Assembly: GCA_027486585.1 (NCBI GenBank)
Contig: JAIXOU010000079.1
Location: 1 to 64,000 of the forward strand
DNA from: Verrucomicrobiaceae bacterium
GTDB lineage: Bacteria > Verrucomicrobiota > Verrucomicrobiia > Verrucomicrobiales > Verrucomicrobiaceae
Length of the DNA stretch: 64,000 nt
Direction of reading: 5' to 3'
Position 1 is the first letter of the stretch. Each line of letters opens with the position of its first letter. The notes beneath the pieces were generated by a model. The model had not been told where the DNA came from, did not search any database, and saw only the letters and a list, made by a program, of their open reading frames with translations. Below are positions 26,783 through 57,989 of this stretch, one piece after another. A program made the position numbers and the translations under genes.

Positions 26783-26785
26783 GGC

Positions 26786-28173: not shown

Positions 28174-31100
28174 ATGAATATGAGTAGAATTGATTTATCC
28201 ATAAAAATAATGACTTCAACTTTTGGTAATCTAGCAGATGTGCGCACCCCTATTAGTGGGCTGCGCTCTGTCTCTCGATGCCTCAACTGCGCCGCTGCAC
28301 AGTTGATGCTGATCGCTTTATGGTTAGGCGTTTTGGTTGCAGATATCTCAGCACAAACAACGGGCACTAATTATAAAGTGACGCGCATAGGCAAGGATGT
28401 GCTCGGTGGTGAAGCGTATGCGCAATCTCAATGCATCATGGGAATGTCTCCCAATGGTCAATACACCACGGGCATGCGCTTTGGTTCAACGACGCGGGGG
28501 TTCATCATGACGACGTCTGGTACGCCAGTGATGACAGATATTGCTAAGCTTGCTTCAACGCATCCCTATGCCGTTGGTGCTGACGTGAATGATGAGGGAG
28601 ATGTGCTCGGCTTTGAGCGCTGGACTTCGGGCTCGAAGATTAACGTGGTGGCCTGGTTTTATGATCGCAGTGCCAATACCGTAGTGCGTCTTTTGACTCC
28701 ATTTGATAGTAGCACCAGCTTGATTGTGACTCCGGTGGCTATCACCGCTGGTAGCGGTCATGCATTTGGAACAGTGGATCCAGATGGCGTGAATGGATCG
28801 ACGGCGCTTGTGGGTGGTTTTTGGAATCTGACGACACTGGCCTGGACTGGCATCAGCGGTGTGCGTGAAGTTTTAGATGCCTCAGCGGATGGATCGGTGT
28901 TGTTGGTGGTCGATACGGCAGGCAATGGCAAGATCATCAAGGGCAGTATCGGTGCTGGTTGGGCGACGACCGTTGCAAGTTTCAACGTTTTGAGTGGTGG
29001 TAAGGTCAGTCCTGATGGGCGCTATGTCGCGTCCTCTGAAAGGGTTGCAGGCGTCCCGGCGCCGTTTTTGTATGATACCGTGACTAGCACACGGACGAAT
29101 CTTGGCCTGGTCAGCGGCGTTGACACGCAAGGGGCTAAAATCGGTGCGGTCAGTGACACCGCTCGCGTGCTCGGCACGGTTAATAGCAGTAGTGGTAGCC
29201 ACGCGGTGATGTGGACTCTCTCAGCCAGTGCTTATCAAAGATTTTCCACGATCCTCGCGACCGATGGTCATGTGGCCATCGATGCAGCTTACTCAAATTG
29301 GAATATCTATAATGGTGGCGATGGAATCTCAGCCGACGGTTTGACTATCGGGCTCTATGGGAACAATCCAGCGGTGTTGGAAGACTCATTGTTGATCAAG
29401 CAACAATGCCCAACGATCACGGTGAATCCTACTTCATTAAGCAATGGCGTGGTGGGTAGTTCATACACTCAGACTGTCAGTGCAAGCGGCGGCGTCGCGG
29501 CTTACACGTATGCTTTGACGAGTGGGACTTTGCCTGCAGGACTGGTCTTTAATAGTTCAACAGGAGCCATCACGGGAACGCCCACAATGAGTAATGGAGC
29601 CGGCACGTCGCTCACATTCCGCGCAACAGATGCCAATGGTTGTTATGGGACACGTGTGCTTACTCTGAAAATTTGTCCGGTGATCGCCGTCAATCCCACG
29701 ACACTTAGCAACGGCACAGTTGGCTCGGTTTACAGTCAAACAATTTCAGCAACGGGTGGTGCGACCCCTTATGCTTTCAGCGTAAGTTCGGGTGCACTGC
29801 CTGCTTGGGCCACGCTGAATCCGACGACAGGAGTTCTTGCAGGAACGCCAAATGCCACGACGACAGCGAATTTCACGATCACTGTGACCGATGCTAATGG
29901 TTGCGTTGGCAGCCGAGTTTATAGCATCACGCCTGTTTGCCCGGTGATTACAGTTTCGCCAAGCCTGATGGCTCAGGGCAGGGTCGGTGTCGCTTATTCA
30001 CAGGCCATGAGTGCTTCAGGCGGAACTGCTGCCTATACTTGGACAATTACGGCGGGTTCTTTGCCTGCCGGCCTAACTTTGACAGCTTCGACGGGTGTGA
30101 TTGCAGGCACGCCGACGGCCTCAGCAAGTCCTGCAACGAGCTTCACGATCTCTGCAACGGATTCTTTTGGCTGTGTTGGTTCACAGGTGGTGAGCTTGCA
30201 GGTTTGCCCTGTGATATCGCTAAGCCCAGTTACTTTGATCGACGGTGTGGTCGGGACGGCTTATTCGCAAACGGTGTCCGCTTCTGGCGGTGCAGCTGCC
30301 TACACCTTCAATATTAGCAATGGTGCGTTGCCGAGCTGGGCTTCTCTCAATTCAACGACGGGTGTGATCAGCGGAACACCGAACTCGACTGCTACGGCCT
30401 CATTTACCGTGCGCGCAGTGGATGCCAATGGCTGTGCTGCAACAAGGGCCTATACGATCACACCGGTTTGTCCTGCAATTTCGATTTCTCCCACAAGTCT
30501 GGCATCAGGAATCGTTGGTTCTGTTTATTCGGCTGCTCTGAGTGCCTCCGGCGGAGTGGCTCCGTATGGTGCCTGGACGATCACAGCAGGTGCTTTGCCT
30601 GCGGGACTTACACTGAATGCTAGCACAGGTGTCGTCAGTGGAACGCCCACAGCTTTTGCTAGCCCAGCCACGAGTTTCACGGTGCGTGTGAATGATGCCA
30701 ATGGTTGCCAAGGAAGCCAATCGGTGAGTTTGCAGATCTGCCCAGTCATCACGATGAATCCATCTGCGGCAGCCGCGGGTGTTGTCGGCACATCCTACAG
30801 CCAAGCGATCAGCGCAACAGGTGGTACGGCTCCTTACACGTTTGCGGTTAGCTCGGGTGTGTTGCCAACTGGATTAACTTTAAATGCCAGCACAGGTGTT
30901 GTCAGTGGCACGCCAACCGTTGAGATCAGCAGCAATGTGACGATTCAGGCGACTGATGCCAATGGTTGCAGAGGATCACGCAGCTTGGTTTTTGCGATGA
31001 GCTGTCCGCCTATCACGATGACACCTTCATCTTTGCCTGTGGGTGCGGTTGGGGTTTCTTACTCGCAGACCCTGACCGCCACGGGTGGCACGCCCGCTTA

Positions 31101-34100: not shown

Positions 34101-37100
34101 AAGCACCACAAGTGCCTCTTTCACCATTAATGCTGCTGATGCCAACGGTTGCGCAGCCACACGTGCTTATTCATTGGCACCTGTCTGCCCAGTCATCACA
34201 ATCGGCCCCGCTTCCTTGCCTAGTGCCACGATTGGTGTTGCTTATAGTCAGGTGATCAGTGCTAGTGGTGGCACAGCTAGTTATACTTACAGCATCACGA
34301 GTGGCACATTGCCTGCTGGTTTGAACTTTAATTCCACTACATCGGTTTTGAGTGGTACACCAACGGCAAGCAATGGCGCGGGCGTTTCAGTCACCTTTCG
34401 TGCCGTAGATGCCTATGGTTGTGTCGGAACAACTCCCCTCACTGTGAAGGTTTGTCCTGTCATTACGGTAAGTCCTAGCACGCTTTCCAATGGCATTGTG
34501 GGCACTGCCTACAGTCAGACGGTTTCTGCTGCTGGCGGTGCTTCACCTTATGTCTTTACTGTGGCTAATGGAGCGCTTCCAGCCTGGGCCACTCTGGATT
34601 CTGCAACAGGCGTGGTGAGCGGCACTCCGAACAGTGCTACGACCTCCACCTTTGGTATCCGTGCTACGGATGCAAATGGCTGTTTTGGCACGCAGTCTTA
34701 CACGATCACGCCAGTGTGTCCGAGCATCACCATCAGTCCTATCTCGCTCACTGTTCCGACGGTAGGTAACGCATACAGCCAGACTTTCAGCGGCACGGGA
34801 GGGACTTCACCTTATACGTTTAACGTGATCTCTGGATTGTTGCCAACGGGACTTTCTTTGAATGCTACTACCGGTGTCATCTCTGGCACTGCGACGAGCA
34901 CTGCGAACGCTAGCTTTACGATCCGCGCAACAGATGCCAATGGCTGTATCGGAGTGCGCAGCTATAGTGTCACGCCAGTCTGTCCGGCTATTACATTAAA
35001 CCCAACATCACTGCCCAATGGCACGGTCGGAGTAAGTTACAGTCAGACGCTCAGCACAACGGGTGGCATTGCTCCCTTTACCTATACTGTGTCAGCGGGT
35101 GCATTGCCTGTGGGTTTAAGCTTAAATGCAACTTCTGGCACACTCAGTGGTACGCCAACGAGCACCGCTACGGCCACTCTAACGATCCGCGTGACTGACA
35201 CCAATGGTTGCCAAGGCACGCGCGCTTATGTGATCACTCCGGTATGCCCGACGATCACGCTGAATCCTTCTGCTATAGCTGCGGGCTTGTCGGGTAGTAG
35301 CTATCAGCAGACTTTAGGTGCATCTGGCGGCACTGCGCCCTACACCTTCAGTGTGATTTCTGGGGTTTTGCCTTCTGGCTTGGCATTAAACTCGGTCACG
35401 GGTGATCTTGCTGGCACGCCAACCTCTGCCAATGGCGGCGGTGCTAGTCTGACCATGGCAGCAACAGATGCTAATGGTTGCGTTGGAACACGTGTTTACA
35501 ATTTGAAGATTTGTCCGGTCATTACCCTGGCTCCGGCGTCTCTGCCAGATGCAGTCGTTGGCACCAACTACTCGCAGGCTGTGTCTGCTGGGAATGGCGG
35601 CGCGCCATACGTTTATTCGGTTGCCACAGGCAGCTTGCTTTCTGGTCTTACACTGGATCCTATCAGCGGTGTGATTAGCGGCACACCAAGCGCAGCCACT
35701 TCAGCGGGATTTACCGTGCGAGTGACCGATGTGAATGGTTGCCAAGCAACACGCAGTTATACGATTTCTGCTTCCTGCTCAGTGATCGCTCTGAATCCTG
35801 TCACACTCCCAACTGCAACAGTTGGCAGTCTCTTTAGCACTACGTTTAGCCCTAGTGTCGGCTCTGCGCCCTTCACTTTCTCGATTACCACGGGTGCTCT
35901 GCCGTCTGGTCTGATCTTGGATAGCTCCAGCGGCATACTCAGTGGCACGCCGATCAATACGACGACATCAAATTTCACGGTTCGCGTGGTGGATCAGTAT
36001 GGCTGCTCTGGCACACGTGCTTACTCAATCACACCCGTTTGTCCGGCGATGACTATCACCCCTGGGGTATTTTCCTCTGCGTTTGTTGGAGTCGCTTATA
36101 CTCAAGCGTTGGCTGTAGGAGGCGGAACAGCTCCTTATACCTGGACACAAACTTCAGGAGTGCTCCCTGCTGGATTAATCTTTGATGCTGCCACGGCGAC
36201 TCTTTCGGGAACTCCGACGGCTACGAATGGTGCTGGTGTCTCGTTGAGTTTCCGAGTGACTGACGTCTATGGCTGTCAGTCCACGTTGAATTCGGTGTTT
36301 GTGGTTTGTCCCGTCATCACCCTGACTCCGACGACTCTTCCTGACGCCTCTGTTGGCGTTGCCTATTCAAGGACCATCAGTGCCAGTGGTGGGGTGTCAC
36401 CTTACATCTACAGTGTTAGCAGTGGCAGCTTGCCTATTGGTCTTAGCATGAGTAGCGCGGGTGTGATCACAGGCACAGCTACCAATTCTGAGCCAGGAAC
36501 TTTCGTGGTTACGGCGACCGATGTGAATGGTTGCGTTGGCACTCGGACCTACAGTATCACCACGGGTTGCGCTGTTATTACACTTTCCCCCACCACATTG
36601 CCAGACCTGACGGTGGGATCGGCTTACACTCAAACGCTGAGCGCCACGCCGCAGAGTGGACTGATTGGGCAGTATTACTCAGGAACAAATTTCAGCTCAC
36701 TGGTATTGACCCGTTCAGATGCTTCAATCGATTTTGATTGGGGCACAGGGTCGCCATCAGCATCAGTGCCAGTCAATGGTTTCTCCGTTCGCTGGACGGG
36801 GACACTGTTGCCAAATTCGACAGGTAATCACACATTCCAAGCCACCACGGATGACGGCTTCCGTCTCTGGGTGAATAATAATCTTGTGATTGATCGCTGG
36901 AATGATCAGGGAGCTACCAATCATACAGCCGTAGTAGCTTTGACTGCAGGTGTGGCTGCGACTGTGCGTGTCGAATATTATGAAAACGCAGGTTCTGCTG
37001 TCGCTCGTCTTCAGTGGTCAGGCCCAGGCTTCACACTGCAACCAGTAACAGGATGGCAGACCTATCGCTACACTGTGGCCACAGGTGCTTTGCCAGCAGG

Positions 37101-40100
37101 ACTTTCATTGAATGCTACGACAGGCCAGATCAGTGGCACGCCGACGGTGCCAGGAAGCTTTACTTTCACCGTCCGTGCATCAGACGGAGGTCCTTGTTTC
37201 GGCACCCGCAGCTATACCGTGAATTCTGTTTGTCCTGCGCTGGCTATCACGACAACGTCTCTTCCTGATGGGTTCACGGGCAATAGTTACTCACGGACTC
37301 TTAATGCTACTGGTGGTAATCCTCCACTCACGTGGAGCCTTTCAAGCGGCACTCTTCCTGCTGGCTTAAGTCTGAGCAGTGCTGGCGAAATCACAGGAAC
37401 GCCTACTGCTGCAACCACCGCTAATATCACTGTACGTGTCACAGATTTAGGCGGCTGTTTTGCCACTCAAGCACTCACACTTCAGGTGCGCAATATGGGT
37501 ATTGGTAACCAGGTATGGGTTGATACGAACAATGATGGACTGCGTGGAAGTACTGAGGCAGGTGTTCCCAATCTAAGAGTCGAGCTCTGGTCACCAGGCT
37601 CAGATGGTCAGCGGAACAACGGCGGTGGTGATGACGTGAAAATTACCGAGCAAGATACCGATTCCAATGGTCTTTACGCCTTCTCCAATCTCCTTGCGGG
37701 CGTCTATTACGTTCGTCTGCCGACTCCGCCTACCTATTATCCCAGCATCAGTACGACGGTAGTAACGACTGACAATGGAGTCAATAATGACAACAATGGG
37801 GTTCAATCAGGCGGTATGGGTTCACCAGTAGTTAGTCCGCTCATTACCTTGAGCGTCGGAGGTGAGCCTGCTGCCGGTGTTGATGGCGACGATTCAGATC
37901 GTGATAGCACCATTGACTTTGCTTTTGCCAACCTCGACCTTTGCTATACAAACACACTGGTGGACAACGCCAGTTTCGAGTTCCAACAGCTTTCCAATAG
38001 CACTGGTACAGCGAGTGCCCTTTTAAATTACAATGGTAGTGGCACATCATTGGGGCTTGGTATCAATGGGTTCCAATGGCTGGGAGGCACCAATGGAACG
38101 AGTGGTCTTGGTGAGCCTATTCAACGCGTGCAAGTCTTGGCTGGAAATGCAGGGTCAAGAGTGAGCTGGGTGGAGTCTGTAAAGGCTCGTCATGGTAAAC
38201 GATACATGCTTTTCCAGGGGGCTAACTCCTGTGTCAGTCTGCGTGCAGCAGGTGGTGGCGAATGGAGCTCGGTTTTGCAGGCTGGTCGTGAATATCAGGT
38301 CTCTATCTGGGCGGCTAATGCGAGTAGTGCTGCTGCATCGATTGTTTTAGATCTAGGCGCGAACACTCAGATCTATCAGGTCATCAGTGGATCGACGCCA
38401 GGTTTGTATCAATATTACACCGTAAGTCAGGGTGAAATGACCGGCACGGCCCCTGGTGAACAACAGTGTTGCGGGTTTAGTGGCAGCGGTGGCTCCTTCT
38501 CAAGCTTTGGAAGTGCCGACTACAATAATTGGTCAGAGGCTAGCACAAACACAGCGCAGCCTATGTGGCGTCAGTTTACTTGGCGCTTCCGTATCGCGAA
38601 TTCAGCGACGCCTACCCAAATTGACACAGCTACGATGATTTTCTCTGGTGGTTCCAATACTGGTCCGATAGCTATGGATCATTTAACTCTTTGTCAGGTC
38701 AGCGCCTCTAGCACGCTGACTTTGGGTAACCAAATTTGGAATGATACAAATAACAATGGTCTGCGTGACGGCACGGAGCTGGGTATCGGTGGAGCTTCTG
38801 TGCAGCTCTACTCGAGTATTAACAACATTTCGGGTGATGCAGACGATATTTTGATTTCTAGCACCACCAGTTCCTCAGGCGGTGCTTATAACTTCACAGG
38901 GTTGAATGCTGGGAAATATGTTGTCAAAGTCACACCGACAACTGGACAGCCTGCGACGAGTGGCATCCCTGTAATAGTGGATAATGGTGTCAACAATGAC
39001 AACAATGGTAGCCAGCCCGGCGGTCCAGGAACGCCCCTATTTAGCCCAGTGATTGATCTGGCGACGGGAAGCGAGCCCATCACGGATGGTGATACGAACC
39101 CAGATACAGAACTGAGTATCGATTTTGGTCTATGGAGCGGGATCAGTATTGGGAATCTGGTTTGGAGTGATGTTAACAGTGACGGTGTTTTTCAAAGTGG
39201 CACGGAATCTGGGATTAGCGGCGTGGCATTAGAGCTGCTCGACAGTTCAAATAACGTCTTGAGAACAACGACCACGAACAGCAGTGGTATTTATAACTTT
39301 GTCACCTACCAACCAGGTCAATATCGAATTCGTATCCCCACGCCGCCATCCTCGCTGCCTTTGATTACAGCGGTGAATGATCCGGCGGATAATGGTGAAG
39401 ACAATGATAGCAATGCCATCCAATCAGGTGGTGTTGGCACTGCAGTGACCAGCCCTCTGATCACTCTGACAGCTGGCGCTGAGCCTGGGATCGTCGGTAC
39501 AACGAACAATGAAAACACGATCGACTTTGGATTCCGTGTCTGCCCTACGATCAGTGTCAGTCCGACGGCTTTGACGACAGCGACTCAATATAGCCCGTTC
39601 AGCGTTAATTTAAGCGCCACAGGTGGCACTGGGCCTTACACATGGTCTGTTACGAGCGGGACTTTGCCTGCGGGTCTAACCCTGACGACGGCAGGTTCTC
39701 TCAGTGGTACGCCTACCGCGGCCGCTCTTCCAGGTTATTACACTTTCACGCTGCGGGCGCTGGATGGTCCTACCGGATGTTCTGCTTCACGCACTTATAC
39801 CCTGACTTTGCTTTGCCCGCTTATCACGGTGTCTCCCGCTTCTCTCACGGGTGGTGTTCAGTATTCAAGTTACTCTCAATCTTTGACTGCTAGTGGTGGT
39901 ACATCTCCGTATTCATGGAGTGTTAGCCCTGCGCTGCCTTCGGGCGCGGTCTCCTGGTGGATCGCTGAAAATGGTCCCGCAGACGTGCTTTCCAATAACT
40001 TTTCGGTTTCTTACAATGGACTGGCTTATCAGACTGGTGCTGTTGGTCGCGCTTTCAACTTTGATGGAGTGGATGACCTCGTGGAGGCAGCGGATAGCAG

Positions 40101-43100: not shown

Positions 43101-46100
43101 TGGTCTTACGGATGTTAGTGAGCCAGCCTACAGTGGTCCGATCAAAGGTGGGGCAAGAAGTCGTCGTGTGCGTGATTGGGATGATACCTTTGATGCTGCT
43201 TACAGCACAGCCCGCAGTAACCTCACCCAGAATCGTGACAGTCTCTGGGTGCGTTTTGATATGGACCCAACAGCCACAGGGACCGTCGGAAAACTGTTGA
43301 TGGATGTTCAACGTGTGAACTCGACCTCGCCAGTGAATGGCAGGGCCTATTTAACATGGAATGACGGATCTGGTTTCCGAACGGCCAGGACGGACGCTTT
43401 TGTGATTGCTGCCCAGCCTACTTGGTATTCGTTGAATCTAAACTGGACGACTTTCCTCGGTGGTGCCACTGCCTTGCCCACTGCTTCCCAACTTGCAGGG
43501 AAATCATTCCTTCTCGAAATCTATCTTTGGGGCGGTGACAGCACTGGTTACATTGACTTTGATAACATCGTCCTTGAAGGCAGCGCTACCTGCGCGCCAC
43601 CTACACTTTCTGTCGGTGACTTTGTTTGGAGTGATCTAAACTGTAACGGCCTTAAAAATTCACGTGAACCAGGACTTCCTGGCGTAACGGTTGAGCTTTG
43701 GCGTGCAGGTGCTGACAATACAGCTAATACGATTGATGATGCCTTGCACGCGACCATGGTGACCGATGCTAATGGCTACTATCTTTTCAGTGGTCTTGCT
43801 GCGGGGAAATACTTCGTGAAGATCCCAATGCCTAGCACTGACTGGCCGACTGCTGCCCCTGCGGTCAATCTGGACAATGGTGTGGACAATGATAGCAACG
43901 GTCTTCAGCCTGGGGGCTCTGGAACCGCAGTGAATAGCCCAGTCATCACACTCGCACTGAGTACTGAGCCCGGAAGCACAGGAACGACAAATCGTGATAT
44001 GAGCATTGATTTTGGTTTTTGTGCCAGCATGAGCATTGGTAATTTGGTCTTTAGTGACGTGAATAACAATGGTCTGGTCGATAGTGGTGAAGGCGGTGTT
44101 ATTGGTGCCCAAGTTGAGCTTTTTCAGTCCACCGATACGACGGTGAATAATAGTGATGATGTGAAGATCGGCAGCACATTCACGACGGATGCGACAGGTG
44201 GTTACAATTTCACAGCACTGACGATTGGTCGTTATTATATCAAGTTGACGCCGCCTATCTCGCATCCCCGCCGCAGCAGTACAAGCAGTAGCAGTGATAA
44301 CGGCGTGGATAATGATAACAATGGTATCAGCCAATCCGCAACGAGCGCCCCTATTTATTCCATGATGGTTACCTTATCGGCATTGACCGAGCCTGGTAAT
44401 CTTTTGGCACCCTTTGGAAGCAATGCAGAGACCACGATCGACTTTGGTTTGCGTCCAGTTTTTGTGAGCATTGGTAACGTCGTCTTCAAGGACGGCAATA
44501 ACAATAATCGTTTTGATACTGGTGAAGGTGTCGGAAATGTCCGAGTCGAGTTGCTCAATGAGGCTGGTGTGTTTGTTCGTAATTTGAGCACGAGTAATGT
44601 GGCGAGCACGCGCGGACAGTATAACTTCACAAATGTTATTCCTGGTAACTATTTTGTTCGCATTCCTCCGAGTGAATTTGGTTCAGGCATGGCTTTGGCA
44701 AACACGCTTTCCATTCAGCCTAGTAGTCCAGTGGACGATGATCAGGATGATGATCAAATCACTGGTGATAGCGGTGTGGATAATGCCACGCCAGCCTCAA
44801 GTGGAATTTCCAGCCCGCTATTGGCTGTCTTTGAAGATACCCAGCCGACTCTTGCTACTGGTGAATCTGGTTTTGGTGCCACTCTAGATGATAGTGACGA
44901 TAACAACGGCAATATGACGGTCGATTTTGGATTCCGTTCTACAGGGCCGACAGAAACTGGCTGTTATCATTTTGTTTTCGGAGACAACAACCAGGATGGC
45001 ACACTTCTGAGTAAGGCAACGGAATGGGTGCCAGCTCAAGCTTATGATTTTAATTATGCGGGTAACATCGCTACCATCGATAATTTTGATCTCGTTTATG
45101 ATGCTCCGACAAAGCGCCTTATTTTAGACTCGAGCTTTACTCAGGTGAGTGGTCGCAAAGTCGATGCCATCTGGATGTTGGTGAGCACGGGGTCCAATCC
45201 AGCAAATGCCGAGCATGCAGTGATTTATATGGACGGTTTCAATCGTAATGCTCCTCAGCTCACGATCTATCGCTACGACCCAGCCCAAGGTCAGCTGAGT
45301 TGGCAGTCTGCCTCTAATATCATGGTGAGCACGGTCGTTGGCGGAGCCAATAGCGCAGACGTTCTTCAGGATAAGGTTACAGAGACGGGTACAAGTGTGC
45401 GTTTCCAATTCGTGATCGACGTCAACCGCGTTAATACGGCCACCAATTGGACTGCCATGGGTGTCAATGCGGCCACTTGGGAAGGGCTTTTGATGGCAGG
45501 ATCGTCTGGCGTTGTTTTGCGCACTGTTGATCTTAACAGTGCGCCGACGTATGATTCATCGGGTCGATTGACGGCATTTAATTACACTCCTAGTAGCACC
45601 ACACAAGGTACGTTTGAAACTGATCCAGCAGGTGTCTTTACCATTGCCACTGAGCCCTGCTCGACTTCACCCTGGGTGAATCTTGGGAATTTGGTATGGA
45701 GTGACACGAATTGGAATGGTCTCAAGGACTCTAGTGAACTCGGTGTGAGTGGTGCTACTGTGCAGCTCTTTGACCCAGGGGCTGATGCTGCTGTTGGTGG
45801 CATTGGGCTTAACGCAGATTTCCAGGTGGGATCATCCTTGGTAACAAATAGTACGGGTGCTTATAACTTTACGAATCTTGTGCCAGGCAAGTATTATGTG
45901 CGTGTTACGCCACCCGCGACTTTCCCTTCGAGCGGCGGATCCGTTGTGACCGTGGATAACAATGTGGATAACGATAATAATGGCAGTCAGCCAGGTGGTC
46001 CGGGTACGAATCTTTTCAGTCCCGTCATTGATCTAGCCGTCGGTTCTGAACCAACCTCTGCAGTGGATGGTGATGGCACGAGTGGAAACGCGACTGTTGA

Positions 46101-49100
46101 TTTCGGCCTCTGGAGTGGCTTCACGATTGGTGATTTAGTCTGGAGTGATTTGAATAATAATGGGCTCAAGGACACGACCGAGTCAGGTGTGAGCGGGGTC
46201 ACTGTCGAGCTAATGAATCCAGGTGCTGATGGCTTTGTTGGTGGCACAGGATTGAATGCCGATACCGTGCTGCTAACGACGAGCACAAACAGCTCTGGTG
46301 CTTATAGCTTCCGATCCTACACGCAGGGTCTTCAATATGTGCGGATCACTCCGACGGCGGCGCTTTCTCTGGCTAGTTCCGTGGTGGTAAGCAGTGACAA
46401 CGGTAGTAATAATGACAACAACGGGACTCAACCGGGCGGTGCTGGAAGTGATATCTCATCCATGATCATCATGCTGACTCCTGGTGGCGAGCCTGGTAAT
46501 ACGGGCACGACCAACAGTGAGACGACGATCGACTTTGGCCTGCGCGGCTGCCCAGCGATCACAATCAGTCCGACATCACTGCCTGTGGTGACTTTGGGGT
46601 CACCTTACAGTCAGACTCTCACAGGTTCTGGTGGTAACTCACCCTACACATGGAGCCTGATAAGTGGCACTCTGCCCACGGGTCTGAGCTTGAGCAGTGG
46701 TGGTGTGCTCAGTGGCTCGACGACTGCTGCGATTGGTAATTACAATCTTACGGTTCAGTTGACTGATCTATCCGGCTGCAAGGTGACGCGTGCTTACACA
46801 CTCACTTTAGTTTGCCCCGCTTTGTCGATGTCTCCTTCCATTCTTTCAAGCGGTACACAGGGCTCCGCTTACAGTCAGACCATGGCTGCTGGTGGTGGCA
46901 CGGCACCTTATACTTGGACGGTTGCATTGGGTGCGGTGCCTTCTGGAATGACGCTTAGCACTAGCGGTTTATTCTCAGGAACACCGACACTGCCAGGAAG
47001 CTACACCTTTACGATTCGTGCAACGGATGCCCGCTCCTGTTTTGTGGATACAAGCTACACCATGGCGGTTTCTTGCCCGACAATTAGCGTGACTCCGAGC
47101 TCTCTTTCGGACGCAACATTGGCTGCGCTATACACGCCAGTGGCATTCAGTGCATCAGGTGGTAGTGCGCCTTATACATGGAGCCTCACCGGCACCCTGC
47201 CAACCGGCATGAGCCTGAGCAGCACGGGCTCTCTGAGTGGCACGCCGAGCGGTGCCCCTGGCGTTTATACCATCACGGCAATTGTTACCGATGCTAATCT
47301 TTGCACTGGCAGTCGCGCCCTCAATCTCCAGGTGAATTGTGGAGCCTTTTCCATCAGTCCATCTACTCTTCCTGCCTCCATTCAGAATGCTGCTTACAGT
47401 GCGCAGACGATTTCTGCTTCGGGAGGAACAGCACCCTACACTTGGGCTGTTACTGTTGGCGGGCTACCTGCCGGCATGACTCTATCACCAGCAGGTGTAT
47501 TGAGCGGCACTCCGACGGCTGCACCAGGCACTTATAATTTCACCGCTCGTGCTACAGATGGTTTTGCCTGCCAAAGTTCACGCGCTTATGCCTTTGTAGT
47601 GAATTGCCCACCCGTCGCTGTGACGACCGCTTCTCTAAATGGTGCTGTGCAGTTTGTAAGCTTCAGCCAAACCTTGGCGGCTAACAGTGGCACATCACCT
47701 TACTCGTGGAGCATCACCAGCGGTACCTTGCCTTCAGGAATGAATTTTTCCTCTGGTGGAGTGCTGAGCGGTACGCCCACACAAATAGGCACCTTCCCGC
47801 TTACTTTCCGTGCGGTAGATAGCAACGGCTGTGCAGCAACTCGTGCTCTTACTCTCACTGTTGCCTGTCCCGTGATCACGTTGACACCAACGACGTTGAT
47901 TGGTGCCCAGAATAACACGGCTTATAATCAGCAGCTTTCGGCGAATGGCGGCACTGGACCGTATGTTTACACTCGGATTAGCGGTGCAATACCGACGGGT
48001 ATGACCTTCACTTCTCAAGGCCTATTGTTTGGTTCACCCATCTCTGGTCCAGGGAACTATACCTTCGCCGTGCAAGCAACGGATGCTTCTGGTACATGTG
48101 CTGGCAGCCAGAGCTACACACTCACAGTCACTTGCCCAACGATCACGCTTTCACCCTCTACCTTGGCCAACGGGACCGTCGGCACGACCTATACGAGCAG
48201 CTTGTCCACCGCAGGTGGCACAGCACCTTATGCCTACTCGGTTATTTCCGGTGCGTTGCCTGCGGGGCTGACAATGTCAGGTTCTGGTTTGATTTCGGGC
48301 ACACCAACAGCTGCTGCGACTGCCAGCTTTACGATCCAGACCAAGGATGCGTTTAACTGCACTGGCACGCGGGCCTATACATTGACCATTGTTTGTCCCG
48401 CAATCACCATCACTCCTTCAACCCTGAATGATGCTTATTACAATTTAGCCTACTCTCAGGCAATGACGGCGACTGGTGGCACTGGGCCTTATGCTTGGAG
48501 TATCGTTGCTGGCACTCCTCCTTCTGGCATCACTTTAAGTCCTGCTGGCGTGCTTAGTGGCACGAGCATTGCTTTTGGTTCAGCATCCTTCAGCGTACGT
48601 GTGACTGATTTGTACGGTTGCCAATCGACTTTAAACACGACTCTTACGGTGAAAGGTTTAGCCATTGGTGATCTGGTCTGGGATGATGTGGACTACAATG
48701 GTATCCATGATGCAGGTGAAGCAGGGGTTAAAGATGTCACCGTGCAGCTTTGGGATCCAGGAGCAGACAATGCCATTGGTGGCACAGGGCCAGATGCAGA
48801 CGTACAGGTGGGTGCAGATAAGACGACGAGTGCTTTCGGGACTTTTGCCTTCCAGAATTTGTTACCTGGTTATTATTACTTGCGCGTCTTCCCACCGACA
48901 AATCTGCCGCTTCCCGGTGGATCTCCGGTCGATGCTGACAACGGCGTGGACAATGACAATAACTCAGCTCAACAGCCTGATGGCCCTGGCACAGTGATTT
49001 ATGGCCCTGTCGTAGAGCTTTCCACTGGCAGCGAGACGATCGATGAGGATGGTGATCATGATACGGACTTCACCGTGGACTTTGGTCTCTATCGTGGCTT

Positions 49101-52100
49101 GACTATTGGCAATCCAGGATCTCCAAACTTTGTTTGGGAAGATGCCAATGATAATGGCATCAAAAATTCGGGTGAGCCTGGTATTGACGGCGTATCCGTC
49201 CAGCTTTGGTTTGCGGGATCAGATCAGCGCATTGGTGGTAGTGATGATGCACTTCGTCAGACCACTACGACATCTGGTGGCGGTAAGTATAGTTTTGTCA
49301 CTTTACCTCCAGGTAAATATTATCTGCGCATTCCGACCACGCCTCAAGCCCAGCCTCTTTCCAGCTCTAGCTCGGTGCTGCTTGATAATGGTATCAATGA
49401 TGATGATAATGGTCATCAAGTCGCAGCAGGGAGCATTTATAGTCCCTTGATCACGCTGACCTCAGGTCAGGAAGTAAGTGATGGTGGCTACAATGAAAAC
49501 ACCATCGATTTTGGTCTTATCCCAGTGACCCCCACTGTTTATCTCTCTGCAACTCAGGACGACAGTATTCAGACCTATAATGCGGCCAGCGGTAAATACA
49601 GCGGTGCCTTGAGACATCCATTTGGGACAAGTCATAACCAAGGAGATGGTAATCCTTTTGATGTGCCCTATGGCATGGAGCTGGGACCTGATGGCAATTG
49701 GTATGTAGCTCACTTTGGTGACAGTAATCTCTATCGTCTCAGTCCTGCAGGAGTCCAGACGGCAGGCGTGCTCAATACCAGCAGTGCATCACTGAGTCAG
49801 ATTCAGGTTTTTGCCATCGGGCCTGATGGTAACTTTTATGTCGTGGATCATAATGGTGGGCGTATTGTCCGATTCGCAGGTCCGCTAAGCAGCACGCCAG
49901 GTGTGCCGATGGGTACAAGTCCGTTTACCTTCCTGACACAATCTGGAATTCAAGATGTGGCCTTTGGCCCAGATGGTAATCTTTATCTTGTCGTGCAAAG
50001 CGGCACAACACGGGAAATCCGGCGCTACAATGCCACGAACGGTGTGCTCATGAATGTCATCGCGACAGATTCTCAGATCGTCTCTATGGTAGCCGGAGGT
50101 CAGCCTGTTTCATTGGTTTCAGGGATAGATATTCATGGGAGCACTCTTTATGGCGTCAATCGCTCTGATGGTGAAATCTTCCGCATCAATCTGACAAATC
50201 CTGCTGCTCCTGGTGCACCTCAGATTGTGGCCACAATCGCCAGTGCAGGTAAGGGGGATGTGGATACACGTGACATTGAGTACAACCCCAAAGATGATCT
50301 GCTTTACTTGACCGGTTACAATTGGGGTAAACCAGTCGTTGCCGGAACTTACAGCAGCGGAGCTATGCTGCGGGTCAGCCTTACTGGGGCCGTTGATATC
50401 TTTGAAGCTCCGATTCCGACACCGCCTGGTCCAAATAATGAAATCTGGGCGGGGCCTCGAGACATCTCGATTGGTAAACCATTCAGCGTTGTCGCCGAGA
50501 CGGTCGCTGTGGGTAGTATTGTGTGGAATGACACCAATGCGAACGGCATCCATGATGCTGGTGAAAATGGCATTCCAAATGTTCGAGTAGAACTCTGGCG
50601 CGACATTGATGGGAACAGTTCTAATGGTGCTGAGTCACGCATTGGCTGGACCTTCACGAACTCACGAGGAATGTATTATTTCTCAGGGGAAGATCCTGGT
50701 GTGTATCAGCTGAAGGTGAGCTCACATAACTTTACGGATGGACAACCTCTGGCTGGATCTGGTTACAGCAGTCCAGTCACTGTTAGCACGGACAATCAGA
50801 TTGATGGAGATGATAATGGTATTCAGACGGGTGGTAACCGCACTGAGACGCTCAGTCCGCTGATTACACTGAACCCAGGTTCCGAGCCTCAAGGTAATGG
50901 TGCGACAGGCGTTGAACTCGGCGTTGGTGGTGAATTGGATAATTTTATCGTAGATGCCAATGGTGACATGACCGTTGACTTCGGCTTCGTAGAGCCAGGC
51001 ATCATGGCTCTGGGTAACTTGGTCTTCAATGATGCCAATGGTAATCGCCGTTTTGACAATGGTGAAGGTTTGGATGGTGTCGCCGTGCAACTTTACTATT
51101 GGGGCCAGACACCAGGCGCAAGCCAACCTGTGGCAACAACGGTGACTGCCAATGGTGGTAAATACCTCTTCAATAACTTGTGGCAGGGGCAATACTTCGT
51201 GCATCTGCCTGCCGCCCAGTTCCAGTCCACTGGGGACTTGCGTGGTCTATTCAGTCTTCAAGATGTCCAAGCTGGGGATGATGATGTGGGAGAAGACTCC
51301 ATTGATACCCTAACTCCATTTACCTCGGGTCTGAGCACCGGACGCATCATCATGACCGCTGACAGCGCCCCGACAAATAGCACCGGTGAAACGGGTGTGA
51401 ATGCATCGAGTGATGATAGCAATGATAACAACACCGATCTTACCGTGGACTTTGGTCTCTTCCGACCTGTGGCGATTGGCAACTTGGTCTTCTTTGATGG
51501 AAATGCCAATGGTCATGCCGATAGTGGTGAAGGTATCAATGGTGTTACTATTCAGCTTTATACCCATGATCAGATTCCCGGCACTGACACGCCGATTGCC
51601 ACGACGACCAGCATCAATGGCGGTAAGTATCTCTTCAGCTTCCTGCGTCCTGGAAACTATCGACTGCATATTCCATCGTCAATGTTCCAAGATGGTGCGG
51701 TGCTTTTCCGCCGAGTAAGCATTGATGAAGGACTCTCAGGTGATGATGATTCTGGAGAAGATGGTCTCAATGACACCATCCCTTCGCAGCAGGGAGTTTC
51801 GACCAATATTGTGACCATTTTCCCAGGTGCCAGCCCCACAGATCAGACGGGCGAATCGGGTGTCGATTCCACTGCTGATAATGACAACGACGCATCTGTC
51901 GATCTCACGGTGGACTTTGGATTCCAGAGTCCTGTTGGGATTGGAAATCTGGTCTTCATTGATGCGAATCAAAATGGTCGTGCTGATGCTGGTGAAGGTG
52001 TCGATGATGTGACCGTTGAAATTTATAGTGCCGATCAGACTCCTGGAAGCGTGACTCCGCTCTTCACACAGAGCACGCAGAATGGCGGTAAATATGCCTT

Positions 52101-55100
52101 CAATTTCCTTTCTACTGGAAGCTATATTGTCTTTATCCCAGCTAGCCAGTTCGCAGTCGGACAGCCGCTGAGCGGAGTCGTCTCAATGACCGGTTCACAG
52201 AATAGCACTGCAGATGATGACGTCGGAGAAGATGGCATCGACGATGCTGCTCCTGGTATCAATGGTATACGCAGTCGTAACATTTCTCTGAATGTGGATG
52301 GTGCTCCAGTAGATGCGGGGACCGAAAGAGGTCTCTATAAGACCGACGATAGTTTTGATGATGATAACTTCGATCTAACCATCGACTTTGGTTTCGCGCC
52401 ATCCAATCCAAATCTCGTTGGCGTGGGTAACCTTGTATATGCGGATGCTAATGGAAATGGCACTTATGATCTCGGAGAAGGTGTCAATGGCGTCGCCGTG
52501 CAATTGTTCAGTTCTCTGGCAGACCCACAGACGGCTCAGCCAATGCGCACAACTATCACTTCCAATGAAGGTGTCTATCTATTCAGCGGTCTGGATGCGG
52601 GGGACTACATCATTCACATTCCAGCTTCTCAATTTGGTGCAGGCAAACCTCTAAGTGGCTGGAGTTCTATGGTGGGTCAGGGCAATGACAATCAAATCGA
52701 TGACAATACAGATGAGAATGGCGGTGGACTGGGCTTGCCAGGTGTTGTCGGGGTTACCTCCACCGTCATCTCACTCTTGCCTGATAGTGAGCCTCAAAAC
52801 GTTTCCGGTGAATCTGGTCGTGACGCATTCATGGACGATGCCAATGACGACAACACCGATTTGACTGTGGATTTTGGGTTCTTCAAACCTGTCGCTGTTG
52901 GTAATCTGGTCTTCCTTGATGCCAACTACAATGGCCGCGCAGAGTCTTCGGAAGGTCTTGCCGAAGTCGAAGTTCAGCTCTTTGAGGCAGGAGACTCCAC
53001 AGTCTTTGATCAGCCATTGTTCACCACAACGACTGACTCATCGGGTCGCTATCTATTTGAAAATTTAGCAGCAGGTAGCTACTTCATTCATGTGCCGCCT
53101 TACATGTTTGCCTTTGGTTCGCCGCTTTACCTGCGGGCCAGTGTTGCAGATGTGCAGTCAGGTGACGATAACTTAGGTGAGGACGGCATTGATGAAGGGC
53201 GTCCGAATGCTTATGGGGTGAGCACCGGAGTCTTCACCCTTACTCCGACAGGTAGCCCTATTGGTTCCGCTGAAGCTGGTCTTTCGGGAACCAGCGATGA
53301 CGCTTCTGATGCTGCAACTGACCTAACAATTGACCTTGGTTTTGTGCCGCGTGTGCAGATCGGAAATCTGGTCTTCCGTGATGCGAATAGCGACGGCGTC
53401 TTTGATCCAAATATTGAAACAGGTATTGATGGAGTGACGGTCGAGCTCTGGTCAGGTCAGGCGAATGCCACGGCACCACTGGCAACCACTACGACCTTTA
53501 ATGGCGGTCTCTACAGCTTCGGTATCGCACCAGGCTCCTATCATATTCGTATTCCAGCGAGTGCCTTTGGATCAGGTGGAGCTGCAGAAAATCTCGTGGA
53601 CACCGCCCCTACGGCTAATACTTCAGGCTTCTCCGCTGATGATGATGCGGGGCAAGACGGTTACCTCACTGGTAGTAGTGTCACTAGCAATGGTGTGCGC
53701 ACGGCAAACTTCACCGTCCTTCCAGGGCTAACACCAGATGCCACGAACGGAGAAACTGGATTCTTGTCCTATGACGATGACACCTTTGAGTATGATTCTG
53801 ATCTCACGGTGGACATTGGGCTGGCTCCAAAACCCATCGGCGTTGGAAACCTAGTGTTCAATGACAGCAATGGTGATAAGCGTTTCACGTCGGGCACTGA
53901 CTTTGGCATTTCGGGTGTGCTCATTGAACTTTATTCAGCAGGCAGCGTGCCCGGATCCAATACGCCTCTGGCCCAGACCTACAGCAAAGAAGGTGGTCTC
54001 TATGAGCTTCGTGCTCCTGGGGCGGGTGACTATTTTATGTTCATTCCTGCCTCTCAGTTTTCTTCAGGCAATGCTCTCTTTGGTGGCTCAGTGGTAACAG
54101 GCTTTGGTGATGACCTGGTGCCGCAGGATGACAATCTCAATGAAGACACTTTGAATGCGCCGTCACCAGCATCGACTGGTGTTTACTCCATTCCCTTCAC
54201 CTTGGTCTATGGCACTGAGCCGGCGGGCTCCGTGGAATCGGGTTCAGGGGGCAATCTCGATGACGCCCGTGACGCTGATTATGATTATACCATTGACTTT
54301 GGTTTCACAGGGATCGCTGCACCACTGAATCTTGGGGTCGGCAACTTGGTCTTCTTTGATACAAACAACAATGGCCGCTACGACAGTGGTGAAGGCAAAT
54401 CTGGCGTCTGGGTTATCCTCTACCGTGGTAGCTCCAATGTGGGGCCATTCACCCCCTTCCGCAGTGCCATCACGGACAGTGCAGGTCGTTATCTCTTTAG
54501 TAGTCTGCCTGCGGATACGTATCGGGTTCACATCGCCGCAGATAACTTTAAAAGCAACATCACCCTTCCCGGCTCCACGACTCAGGGCAATGGTCCGCTC
54601 TATGGTATGGTCTCAGTCACGGGTAATCAAAACGCGGCGACCTCTGCCGATGACAATCTTGGAGAAGATGGCGAGGATATTTCCAATCCATCCCTGTGGG
54701 GCATCAGCAGCCCATTCTTCAGTGTCCAAGCCGGAACCGCGCCTGTCGGCACCGCGGAGGCAGGCTTTGAGGGGTCCACTGACAATGCCAATGATTCAAA
54801 CGTGAATTTGACCATCGACTTTGGATTCAAAAATGCACCGGTGCCAGCGACTCTGAAGGTCGGGAACTTAGTCTTCCATGATCTAAACAACAATGGTATC
54901 GCTGATGTAGGTGAAGGTATCGGTGGCGTATTGGTGCAGCTCTTCAGTGCTGGCGCTAATCCTGTGACAGCCACGCCTGTCGCCTCTATGACGACTGTAA
55001 TGACGGGATCATTGATGGGCCAATATCTCTTTGAAAATCTAGCGCCTGGAAACTACTTCATCTTCATCCCTGCTTCGAATTTTGCCTCGGCCAGTTCACC

Positions 55101-57720
55101 TCTGTATCGCAAGCTTTCTCTTTACGGCGCGCAGGCTAATTCGGCTGACGATAATGCAGGGGAAGATGGTCTTGATAACTCCAAGCCTGAAGCCAATGGT
55201 ATCCGCTCAGCCGATTTTACCTTAATTTCAGGGACAGCACCCGCAGGCACTTCTGAGTTAGGCTTCATGGGCACCAGTGACGATACCGCTGATGGCGATG
55301 CGAATCTGACTATCGACTTTGGTTTCATCAACCGCATAGGTCTTGGGAATCTTGTTTTCATTGATCTCAATGCTGACGGCAAATATACCGCTGGCGTCGA
55401 TTCGACCGTTGATGGCGTTACAGTTGAAGCCGTCCGCATGAGTGGCAACAGCGAAGTGGCCGTCGTGGACACCACCGTCACTGCGAATGGTGGGATCTAT
55501 CGTCTAAATGTGTCTCCTGGAACTTACAAAGGCCGCGTTCCAGCCTCCATGTTTGCTCCTGGCGGTAAGTTAGCCAACCTCAAAGCCTCCACCATCACCG
55601 GCACAGGCTTTGACGACAATCTGAATCAAGATGGTATCACCAGCGCTAGCCCCATCACCACCGGCATCTCGACCTCGACCTATAACTTTGCACTGGGAGC
55701 CCAGTCTACAGACGCGAACGGACAGGAAGCTGGCACCGATAAAACCAGTGACAATGATGAAGACTCCAATGTGAATCTTACTGGCGACTTCGGCTTCGTG
55801 CCAAATGGCCCCGCAGTGGGTAACTTTGTCTTCCGTGACAACAACGGCGACTCCAAATACACCTCTAGCACAGATGTAGCCATTCCTGGCGTTACCTTGA
55901 AGCTCTTCGCTGCTGGGGTGAACCCTCAAACAGGCTCGCCAGTCGCATCCACCAACAGTGCGGCAGATGGCAGCTATCTGCTTTTTGCCCCGAGCGCAGG
56001 CAGCTACTTCATCCATGTAAACTATAGCAATTTCCTAGCGTCACAGTCTGGTGCGCTTGTCGGGATGAAAGCCAGTTCGATTGCAGGATCCCCCACGGCA
56101 TCGACTGACGACAACTTCGATCAGAACGCTATCAGTGTTAGTTCCCCATCGGTCAATGGCATCAGCACTGGTTTCTTTACTCTCGGAATCAATACCATGC
56201 CCCTCGACAGCACCGGCACCACTGGTGAGTCAGGCTACATGAAGACTCTCGACAACTTCGCTGACTCCTGGGGTAACATGACGATTGACCTTGGTTTTGA
56301 ATTAGCTCCTCAAGGCTTTGCTTTGGCTGACAGAGATCGTAACGGAGCTATCACGACTGTTCCAACAACCGTGGACGTGGCCCCAGTGACGACTCCGCAA
56401 ACAACGACTACACCTGCCACATTCGCTAGATGGCAGTTGGATCATCCTGGCACAGCAGAATCAGATACAGACGACGATTCTGCTTCTAATCTCTTGGAGT
56501 ACGCCATGGGCAGTGAGGTTAGCAGCGGTGCTTCTCAGCCTATCTTTAAGCTGACTTCAGATACGGCAACGGGTCGGGTTGATATGGTGATCACTCGCCC
56601 TACAGGTGGTCGTGCAGACATCCGTTACATTTTGAGTGCCAAGGCTGATACCCGCAACACTGCTTGGGCGCGTCTTAGCCTGGCACCTGAGATCACTCAG
56701 AACAATGATGGCACTGAAAACGTTCGTTATGCCAACATTGCCAGCGCTACTGTTTTTGCTGGATCGAATCTCGGTCTAGTTCGTCTAGAAACACAGCTTG
56801 ATGCCAATCTCGATGGAACTCCAGAGGCTACCTCCTACAGCACCACTCAGGTCTGGATACGCCGCAGCATCTCAGAGCGCATGACCTTCTCGATGCCTCT
56901 CCTTAAAGCTGATTTATTCCGTGGACGTATCACCAGCACATTAGGCAATAGACTTCGTTCGGGAAGCCAGGTCTGGACGACGTTGTTAACTGCCGATCGT
57001 CTGTTCTACATCGAAGTCACCTCTGGAGTCTATGAAGGTCACCGCTTTGACCTTGATGCGTCTGCTACGACATCGACAGATCTTGTGATTGAAGGTAGTC
57101 TGCCTGCTGGGCTGATCGGTGCCACCTTTGCTTTACGCAGCCATTGGACCGTGGATGAACTCTTCCCTACCACTCTCTTTAAGGCTGGCCCTAGCGCAGA
57201 TGAAGCTGACCGTCTGCTCTTCTTTGATGGCAAGACGAATGCCTTCCGCAGCTCTTGGCTGGCTAACGACGGTTGGACAGGCTCGGCAGTCGGTACGAGC
57301 ATCTTGGCGCCAGGTGAAGGTCTTATTGTTCATGCACGGACAAGCGCAGTGACGCTCACCCTGACGGGCAGCCTGCGTAGCAATCAGTTCCACCTGCCAT
57401 TGAAAGCTGGTGCTCAATTGGTTGGCAGCGGCTTCCCAATGGATCATAGCCCGGTCAGTCTCGGTCTCACCACGACCAATGGCTTCACCTCCGGCACCCG
57501 TGCCTCATCCGCTGATCGACTCCGCCTCTGGGAGGGGGACACGACTGAAGGCGCTGCAACCTACCGCAGTCTATTCCTCCAGCAGCGCAGCGCAGGCTCG
57601 ATCTGGATTCAGGAAAATGATGCAGGCCAGCTTGATCAATCTCGCGCCGTTCTTATAGCGCCTAGCCAAGCACTATTCCTTCTTCCGAAGACTGCTCAGC
57701 CTGACTTCAGAGAGCCTTAG
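28174..57720 (+). CDS. Giant secreted multi-domain surface protein (9,848 aa), likely adhesin/fibre
   Basis: One uninterrupted frame encodes about 9,848 residues, probably about 1 MDa. A signal-like hydrophobic segment ([17 protein letters not shown], from residue 45) follows a long N-region. Next: HAF-repeat-like segment (about 64-410); 29 He_PIG/putative-Ig repeats (412-3105); SdrD-B-like module 1; an insert domain (3255-3510); SdrD-B 2-3; 9 Ig repeats; SdrD-B 4; insert (4935-5141); SdrD-B 5-7; insert (5591-5829); SdrD-B 8-9; 8 Ig repeats; SdrD-B 10-11; a beta-propeller (7120-7440); SdrD-B 12-23; then a C-terminal region (9380-9848) of the kind shared by verrucomicrobial exported proteins. 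No enzyme active site is recognised. The acidic Asn/Asp-rich loops suggest calcium binding. Probably an exported adhesin or cell-surface fibre. The exact start is uncertain (28174, 28210 or 28306). Divergent from the YtrA-type operon. Confidence 0.9.
28366..29406 (+). other. Giant protein N-terminal HAF-repeat-like region
   Basis: Residues about 65-411 lack the Ig signature and have repeating units of the type [29 protein letters not shown] and [11 protein letters not shown], each a short strand pair with a Gly/Asp turn and a following aromatic. This resembles the HAF (extracellular) repeats of bacterial exported proteins, which form a propeller-like fold. It sits before the first Ig repeat. 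Confidence 0.6.
29407..37490 (+). repeat. He_PIG/putative-Ig array 1, about 29 repeats
   Basis: About 29 units of about 80-95 residues begin with CP-x-I(T/A/S)(V/L/I)-x-P at 29407, 29674, 29938 and so on to 37228. Each contains Y(S/T)QT(V/I)SA-GG-x-x-PY, SG(A/T)LPAG(L/W), STG-x-I-SGTP and A(T/V)DANGC-G(S/T)R. One Cys is at the start and one near the end, giving a regular Cys pattern. The repeat that begins near 36565 is interrupted by a PA14 domain. Nucleotide sequences differ strongly between units. Confidence 0.9.
36652..37053 (+). other. PA14 domain nested in Ig repeat 28 of the giant protein
   Basis: Residues about 2827-2957 begin [11 protein letters not shown] and contain [23 protein letters not shown]-like [24 protein letters not shown] and [20 protein letters not shown], the full PA14 signature set. 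PA14 domains bind carbohydrates in many surface proteins. The host Ig repeat starts before it ([20 protein letters not shown]) and resumes after it at [15 protein letters not shown]. Confidence 0.9.
37498..39537 (+). repeat. SdrD-B-like modules 1-3 with an inserted jelly-roll-like domain
   Basis: Modules start with [14 protein letters not shown] (37498), [13 protein letters not shown] (about 38725) and [13 protein letters not shown] (about 39145) and end in DFAF/DFGL/DFGF. They contain the [10 protein letters not shown] loop, as in calcium-binding SdrD B repeats. Between modules 1 and 2 (37936-38710, residues about 3255-3510) is a domain with [16 protein letters not shown] and [11 protein letters not shown] blocks that recalls galactose-binding-like jelly rolls (DUF642/CBM-like). 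That last identification is weak. Confidence 0.8.
39541..42545 (+). repeat. He_PIG/putative-Ig array 2, about 9 repeats
   Basis: Units begin with CP at about 39541, 39813, 40702, 40969, 41233, 41500, 41761, 42025 and 42286. Several use [11 protein letters not shown] or [10 protein letters not shown] beginnings and S(A/S)AGV(L/I)SGTP centres. The second repeat is split by a LamG domain. The ninth ends at TGLSLGD, the start of the next SdrD-B module. Confidence 0.88.
39949..40557 (+). other. LamG/concanavalin-like domain nested in an Ig repeat
   Basis: Residues about 3926-4120 contain [54 protein letters not shown] and [15 protein letters not shown], the classic LamG/LamGL3 motifs. It interrupts an Ig repeat, which starts before it at [17 protein letters not shown] and resumes after it at [14 protein letters not shown]. 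Such domains bind carbohydrate or matrix ligands. Confidence 0.92.
42553..46544 (+). repeat. SdrD-B-like modules 4-9 with two insert domains
   Basis: Module starts: 42553 ([13 protein letters not shown]), about 43612 ([13 protein letters not shown]), about 44032 ([13 protein letters not shown]), about 44467 ([13 protein letters not shown]), about 45679 ([13 protein letters not shown]) and about 46123 ([13 protein letters not shown]). Inserts lie at 42976-43596 ([27 protein letters not shown]; a jelly-roll-like ending) and 44944-45660 ([34 protein letters not shown]). I do not recognise either insert confidently. Confidence 0.8.
46549..48655 (+). repeat. He_PIG/putative-Ig array 3, 8 repeats
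   Basis: Units start with C near 46549, 46813, 47074, 47338 ([11 protein letters not shown], without the usual Pro), 47605, 47866, 48130 and 48391. They keep the SYTLT-x-x-CP joint and the LSGTP turn seen in the other arrays. The array leads into SdrD-B module 10 at [11 protein letters not shown]. Confidence 0.88.
48661..49530 (+). repeat. SdrD-B-like modules 10-11
   Basis: Module 10 begins [15 protein letters not shown] and module 11 begins [20 protein letters not shown], which carries a short insertion. Both have the DNG(V/I)(D/N)(N/D)DN Asp/Asn loop and end in VDFGL or IDFGL. They join Ig array 3 to the propeller. Confidence 0.82.
49531..50500 (+). other. Beta-propeller (NHL/Vgb-like) domain of the giant protein
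   Basis: Residues about 7120-7440 contain repeated blades with [71 protein letters not shown] and [16 protein letters not shown]. The G-P-D-G-N-x-Y pattern is that of NHL/SMP-30-like six- or seven-blade propellers. At least five blades are visible. It lies between SdrD-B modules 11 and 12. Confidence 0.8.
50506..56310 (+). repeat. SdrD-B-like modules 12-23
   Basis: Twelve tandem modules of about 150-165 residues start near 50506, 51007, 51472, 51937, 52420, 52890, 53353, 53838, 54330, 54855, 55335 and 55812, with (V/I)GNLVF-D-NxNG(R/K) starts, a YLF-L-PG-Y(F/H)IxIPAS centre and VDFGF ends. From module 13 on, the usual [10 protein letters not shown] loop is replaced by a DD(D/N)xGEDG(I/L) loop and a G(E/T)xG-x-x-DD-x-D-x-N end. 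Module 12 mixes both forms. Confidence 0.88.
56311..57720 (+). other. Giant protein C-terminal region
   Basis: Residues about 9380-9848 begin with a Thr/Pro linker, then [32 protein letters not shown] and a block of about 380 residues with [39 protein letters not shown] and [10 protein letters not shown]. This resembles a C-terminal region seen in several exported verrucomicrobial proteins (TIGR02597 from memory). It lacks LPXTG, PEP-CTERM and type 9 signal features. It may be the part that sorts the protein to the surface. Confidence 0.6.
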
Positions 57721-57956: not shown

Positions 57957-57989
57957 AAAAAACCGTGAACCAGCAGTTCACGGTTTTTT
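57957..57989. terminator. Bidirectional intrinsic terminator
   Basis: AACCGTGAAC (57961-57970), loop CAGCA and GTTCACGGTT (57976-57985) form a perfect 10-bp stem, with A-run before (57957-57960) and T-run after (57984-57989). It lies 237 bp after the giant gene stop and 22 bp before the stop of the gene on the other strand, so it can serve both. Confidence 0.9.

Follow-up and report, generated by a model that had tools for sequence, protein, structure and literature searches.

The 64,000-nucleotide stretch of DNA analysed here (the window) holds a single open reading frame of 9,848 codons, raising the questions of whether so large a gene is genuine and, if so, what its product does for the cell. 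The uninterrupted frame described in the initial annotation proved exact: it occupies 28174..57720 on the + strand and runs from ATG to TAG without an internal stop, and an in-frame stop lies 13 codons upstream of its start. The mature form of the 9,848-residue product comes to ~995 kDa (roughly one megadalton) with a pI of 4.24. Its description as one of the longest bacterial genes was too strong, as a planctomycete gene of 36,239 bp (PMC5177795) and an Omnitrophota ORF of 39,678 residues (PMC10066038) have been published, and orthologues within the genus reach 12,114 residues.

Because the source genome is a draft assembly in 147 contigs, the gene could be viewed as an assembly artefact, a reading to which we assign a negligible probability. 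No exact direct repeat within it exceeds 22 bp, and a self-comparison gives just eight weak matches, making a short-read collapse very unlikely. Further, a close relative whose genome was assembled separately (G152, record JAIXZA010000050.1) has a frame of identical length, 9,848 codons, which differs by 819 substitutions, 621 of them in third codon positions, and by no indels. The dN/dS ratio of the gene is 0.10 against this relative, and 0.14 and 0.09 in two other orthologue pairs (G012/G028 and G034/G019, respectively); across these three pairs it stays below 0.2 in each 1,000-codon block having differences. Orthologues are also present in 12 further genomes, including on a 2.7-Mb contig and in a cultured strain. 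Repeat collapse and frameshift, the two ways in which the initial annotation had suggested that the frame might fail, are thus ruled out by the 22-bp maximum repeat, the indel-free frame of the relative and the dN/dS values. Purifying selection along the entire length indicates that the whole frame is very probably translated. In a separate observation, residues 4001-5000 (window 40174-43173) are almost identical between the two close relatives, with a dS of 0 as against ~0.1 elsewhere, which may mean that the strains recombined recently or that one of the metagenome-assembled genomes (MAGs) is chimeric here.

From the N-terminus to the C-terminus, the features of the gene and its immediate 3' flank are as follows:

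28174..57720, + strand: the whole giant gene, 9,848 aa, assessed by frame, selection and composition.
28174..28356, + strand: signal peptide with a long n-region (residues 1-61; hydrophobic core 37-58); orthologues have similarly long signals.
28357..29406, + strand: genus-specific N-terminal propeller-like domain (residues 62-411), with a weak TolB-propeller match.
29407..36558, + strand: 27 tandem He_PIG Ig-like domains, a species-variable array (profile matches, orthologue comparison).
36568..37221, + strand: Ig 28, split and holding a nested PA14 domain (trained profile, model).
36658..37062, + strand: the PA14 domain nested in Ig 28, with a DDG sugar-site motif at residue 2893 (profile, fold, motif).
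37231..37926, + strand: Ig 29 and SdrD_B-like domain 1 (trained profiles).
37927..38721, + strand: 265-aa CBM4-like insert, a core marker of the family (fold match, genome survey).
38722..39804, + strand: SdrD_B-like domains 2-3 and Ig 30 (trained profiles, model).
39814..40692, + strand: Ig 31, split by a nested LamG domain at ~40030-40548 (profiles, model, fold match).
40702..42966, + strand: seven Ig domains (32-38) and SdrD_B-like domain 4 (trained profiles).
42967..43611, + strand: 215-aa insert without a family match, kept in 10 of 12 orthologues.
43612..44934, + strand: SdrD_B-like domains 5-7 (trained profiles).
44935..45681, + strand: 249-aa insert without a family match, likewise kept in 10 of 12 orthologues.
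45682..49518, + strand: SdrD_B-like domains 8-9, eight Ig domains (39-46) and SdrD_B-like domains 10-11 (trained profiles).
49519..50508, + strand: internal propeller, DUF6923/ScyE/NHL-like (profile matches).
50509..56298, + strand: twelve SdrD_B-like domains (12-23; trained profiles).
56299..57720, + strand: C-terminal verrucomicrobial module, comprising a DxDxDG..NLLEYALG part and a TIGR02597-like part (profiles, genome survey).
57957..57989, unstranded: hairpin of 15 pairs 3' of the giant gene, called terminator-like on the - strand.

The bulk of the protein thus consists of two kinds of repeats, whose numbers, obtained with profiles trained on the giant protein itself, exactly reproduce those proposed earlier: 46 Ig-like He_PIG domains (44 whole and two split) and 23 SdrD_B-like domains. 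Both also exceed the gathering scores of the respective Pfam families: segments score as high as 541 bits for He_PIG (PF05345), whose cut-off is 24, and the SdrD_B repeats likewise pass that of PF17210. Many of the SdrD_B-like domains have EF-hand-like calcium loops, and all but one of the 23 lack cysteine. Exactly two cysteines are found in every one of the 44 whole Ig domains. Across the giant proteins, 559 of the 575 Ig domains having the first cysteine possess the second, located in the FG turn, and in no domain does the second occur by itself; domains at the ends of arrays keep both. This pairing, together with the array-end domains, favours a bond inside each Ig over one to a neighbouring domain, and we predict that a disulfide probably links the first residue to the FG turn within each.

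Beyond the repeats, the internal propeller of the earlier description is borne out by matches to DUF6923 (E 4e-10) and to the ScyE family (E 1e-10). The N-terminal domain (residues 62-411) has no Pfam match and only a weak relationship to the TolB propeller (E 0.017), and neither it nor the C-terminal module matched any of the sequences of solved structures. No clear hydrophobic helix was found in the protein besides the signal peptide. A search for hairpins near the gene returned two against 1.2 expected, which is not evidence of function; the one at 57957-57989 is a candidate shared terminator. It lies between the giant gene and a convergent ORF just beyond it (58011-58367, - strand), which codes for 118 residues with an Ala/Thr-rich tail.

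Sequence comparisons place the giant protein in a family rather than leaving it a singleton. The named orthologue records are from Verrucomicrobiaceae MAGs, Prosthecobacter MAGs and Brevifollis gellanilyticus NBRC 108608, a cultured strain with the longest of the complete orthologues, which span 7,659 to 12,114 residues. Their C-terminal ~6,700 residues show a single domain order, mostly at 45-83% identity, save for local losses in one pair (G034/G019) and slight changes in repeat number; most SdrD_B-like repeats of this core match the positional counterpart from another species. The N-terminal half is variable: its Ig domains number as few as three or form long arrays, and between 0 and ~3,300 additional residues precede the propeller. 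Here, the Ig domains are 54-73% identical to one another, mostly equalling or exceeding their match to any orthologue, which points to later growth of the N-terminal array. Of 34 other genomes of the genus, 16 have the N-terminal domain itself, which is 50-60% identical between orthologues; it was not recovered in any of 21 genomes from the other genera of the order. Of at least 48 same-genus genomes, 28 carry the 265-aa insert, as do six from other genera of the family (two with weak matches); among 289 genomes of the order, it is absent beyond the family. The gene is missing from about half of the same-genus genomes, which counts against reading its product as an adhesive fibre.

Two further observations concern this distribution. 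Among the same-genus genomes listed, those of ~4.5 Mb or less are without the core insert, and most carriers are of 5.6 Mb or more. In three genomes from other genera of the family (G124, G107 and G060; loci L099-L106), giants of 8,600-10,000 residues lie 99-277 bp after another giant ORF.

The PA14 and LamG domains noted earlier are indeed present, with domain profiles detecting PA14 at E 2e-27 and Laminin_G_3 at E 4e-33. They are not simply lined up with the repeats but nested inside Ig domains: Ig 28 is interrupted by PA14 in one of its early loops and Ig 31 by LamG in a later one, at places that correspond across orthologues. AlphaFold2 models, built on alignments from the window and related loci only and of medium confidence overall (mean pLDDT 77 and 76), allow these domains to be compared with solved structures. 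The modelled PA14 superimposes on a PA14 of Clostridium clariflavum with Z 22.6 and 1.2 A across 135 residues, and on the sugar-binding PA14 of Marinomonas MpIBP with Z about 15. Of 12 orthologues, 11 retain its DD(G) calcium/sugar motif; the remaining one gave no PA14 match. By its modelled fold and DD motif, it is predicted to be one of the sugar-binding PA14 domains. The 265-aa insert is modelled as a CBM4-like sandwich (Z 13.2 to CBM4-2), with a weak match to Pfam CBM_4_9 (E 0.2) and chance-level matches to the sequences of solved structures. The modelled LamG approaches pentraxin and PAPP-A (Z 18) as well as the arabinan-binding domain of AbnA (Z ~17). The fold matches to the binding fragments of tetanus and botulinum toxins reflect the ConA-like jelly roll common to pentraxins and carbohydrate-binding modules, and were not taken as a link to toxins.

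The initial annotation had placed ligand-binding heads along a stalk of Ig and SdrD_B repeats without enzyme motifs, and both elements are sustained. Three modelled heads, two of them in split Ig domains, resemble sugar-binding modules, and profile searches recognised no enzyme domain in the giant protein. Its matches to xylosidase, Vgb-lyase, SGL and sialidase families are partial, below cut-off and reflect the PA14, propeller or LamG folds; likewise, a Dioxygenase match of 29.4 bits against 27.3 is limited to a transthyretin-like stretch of one SdrD_B repeat.

How the protein might be held at the cell may turn on its C-terminus, which had been called verrucomicrobial in type. This assignment is upheld on two counts. 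One is a weak, partial match to TIGR02597 (3.5e-9, 36 bits, below the curated cut-off of 50), a model that matches part of the module in six of seven orthologues (E < 0.01) and nothing in 14 control genomes. The other is the spread of the last ~440 residues: a profile of the module finds all or part of them in 105 of the 289 genomes surveyed from the phylum, and they recur in other giants, unrelated to this one, within its own genome. The module is 33-53% conserved among orthologues, below the level of the core, and some stand-alone proteins of ~360 residues correspond to parts of it; the TIGR02597 family also has short stand-alone members. The lower conservation and the stand-alone forms make its role in anchoring uncertain.

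Several hallmarks of established surface-display systems are absent here. RTX nonapeptide motifs and an LPXTG motif are absent from the protein, and NCBIfam reports no type IX sorting-domain family in its C-terminal region; hence, we rejected an RTX adhesin, an LPXTG adhesin and a recognised type IX sorting domain. SprA had no match in the genome, in a search that also found none in the control genomes and so had no positive control. Domain searches run without a dedicated profile returned no LapA-type retention domain, and a Sec-type signal is present. No secretion or chaperone partner is conserved beside the gene. Synteny is confined to close sub-clades, where the neighbours are housekeeping genes, such that no dedicated partner is evident. 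On the - strand at 18395-27688, an ABC ATPase is followed by four large, probably membrane, proteins without a Pfam family above cut-off, two of which look like diverged copies of one another.

Taken together, we propose, with a probability of about 0.62, that the giant protein is a Sec-exported, disulfide-clipped, probably C-terminally anchored surface fibre that binds glycans and mediates adhesion. In this proposal, Sec export and a predicted passage through the outer membrane would deliver it to the cell surface, where the Ig-like and SdrD_B-like domains would form a long stalk, perhaps stiffened by calcium. At 4-5 nm per domain, a rough estimate of its length would be near 0.3 micrometre. 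Glycan-binding modules would project from this stalk, with PA14 and LamG mounted through split Ig domains, and with the CBM4-like module, the two inserts without family match and the propeller placed between SdrD_B repeats. Retention at the cell is most likely due to the C-terminal module, the natural candidate in being shared and non-repetitive; this would leave the species-variable N-terminal half distal. The glycans bound are presumably external, and sticking to them is the probable role of the fibre, adhesion being a good inference from its sugar-binding-like heads and stalk.

More tentatively, and with clearly less confidence, the giants may represent a new fibre family of Verrucomicrobiota with its own means of export and anchoring through the C-terminal module, independently evolved split-domain heads, and a core conserved repeat by repeat and bearing an interchangeable N-terminal tip.

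It is rather unlikely that the giants instead form a structural coat or matrix, that is, a sheath or envelope layer, for example around the cell or its prosthecae, in which the lectin-like domains bind the organism's own polysaccharide. The fixed length and domain order of the core, the acidic, disulfide-clipped repeats and the presence in one genome of several giants with the same C-terminus would all suit such a layer, but the variable N-terminal half and the several different lectin-like heads suggest external, changing ligands, and half of the genus does without the gene. A scaffold for nutritional capture, holding polysaccharides near the cell for separate hydrolases with attachment as a secondary effect, is also doubtful: while the nearest folds to PA14, CBM4 and LamG come from proteins that sense or degrade polysaccharides, no catalytic domain, cohesin or dockerin was recognised in the chain, and no conserved hydrolase adjoins the gene.

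Predation, which the initial annotation had offered beside adhesion, found no specific support, whereas adhesion is backed by the sugar-binding-like heads on a stalk. A prey-capture fibre akin to the grappling hooks of Aureispira is improbable despite the large size of the protein, an unspecific match in fold to the base of GhpA and the link of giant ORFs with predation in Omnitrophota (PMC10066038), given that the GhpA match is one expected of Ig-like chains in general, that no type IX sorting domain or toxin/lytic partner was recognised and that the hosts are large-genome bacteria, one a cultured isolate. Finally, a polyprotein processed, once exported, into a set of soluble proteins that bind glycans would explain the distinct blocks with inserts between them, but is highly improbable given the short linkers, with Ig and SdrD_B units abutting with few residues between.

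Among the closest known parallels of the proposed adhesive fibre are the RTX adhesins, whose ligand-binding domains are held away from the axis of the fibre by split Ig-like domains (PMC12077191, PMC10865825). Like MpIBP, FrhA and AhLap, the protein is a giant single chain of Ig-like extenders with PA14 or other putative glycan-binding heads emerging from split Ig domains. Unlike them, it has no RTX nonapeptides, bears a Sec signal peptide instead of using type I secretion, and combines mid-chain heads, SdrD_B repeats and a verrucomicrobial C-terminus. This suggests a separate origin, outside the RTX adhesins, of lectin heads mounted through split Ig domains. With the staphylococcal MSCRAMMs SdrC and SdrD it shares tandem SdrD B-like domains with EF-hand-like loops, and the SdrD A2-A3-B1-B2 crystal structure heads the fold matches of the second model. 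In contrast to these, it has no LPXTG motif or sign of an N2-N3 ligand-binding region, its host is of Gram-negative type, and it mixes 23 B-like repeats with Ig arrays. Aureispira GhpA, a known surface protein that appears in the fold list, is similarly giant and rich in beta-sandwich domains, but this resemblance is generic and no type IX sorting domain was found in the protein described here.

Genes of over 20 kb coding for extracellular proteins are likewise known from Omnitrophota and Planctomycetes, with Laminin_G_3 in some of those from Omnitrophota (PMC10066038, PMC5177795). Giant surface proteins of the superphylum are therefore not new (PMC5177795, PMC10066038), nor is any of the recognised domain types. 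However, the Omnitrophota giants have been described as poorly conserved or as having transmembrane helices, whereas here the core is conserved genus-wide and no transmembrane helix is evident past the signal peptide. In the literature searched, we found no account of giant proteins from Prosthecobacter or Brevifollis; by the same measure, a conserved-core family found across the genus, the use of split-Ig heads beyond the RTX adhesins and their union with a verrucomicrobial C-terminus are new. Giant genes of the superphylum have often been called poorly conserved and difficult to interpret. A protein of ~1 MDa conserved domain by domain, with sugar-binding-like heads and a cultured strain in the genus, makes its role directly testable. 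Moreover, the shared C-terminal module may serve as a signal for anchoring or sorting in Verrucomicrobiota, whose surface-protein export is little understood.

The same genome holds additional genes that touch on this module. A second giant, of 5,123 codons (contig C83, ~73,000-92,000), has ~21 SdrD_B repeats, which score much more strongly (up to 138 bits), and ends in the same C-terminal module. Two others are cut by contig ends, on C27 (L071, 1-12670) and C69 (L070). On C27, a giant ends in the C-terminal module and ~190 bp further on another starts with the propeller N-terminus, indicating that giants can stand in tandem. On a further contig (C138; L072, 1-16285), two proteins of ~235 residues with PEP-CTERM-like tails are flanked by a 553-residue protein having the C-terminal module of the giants and by a truncated giant.
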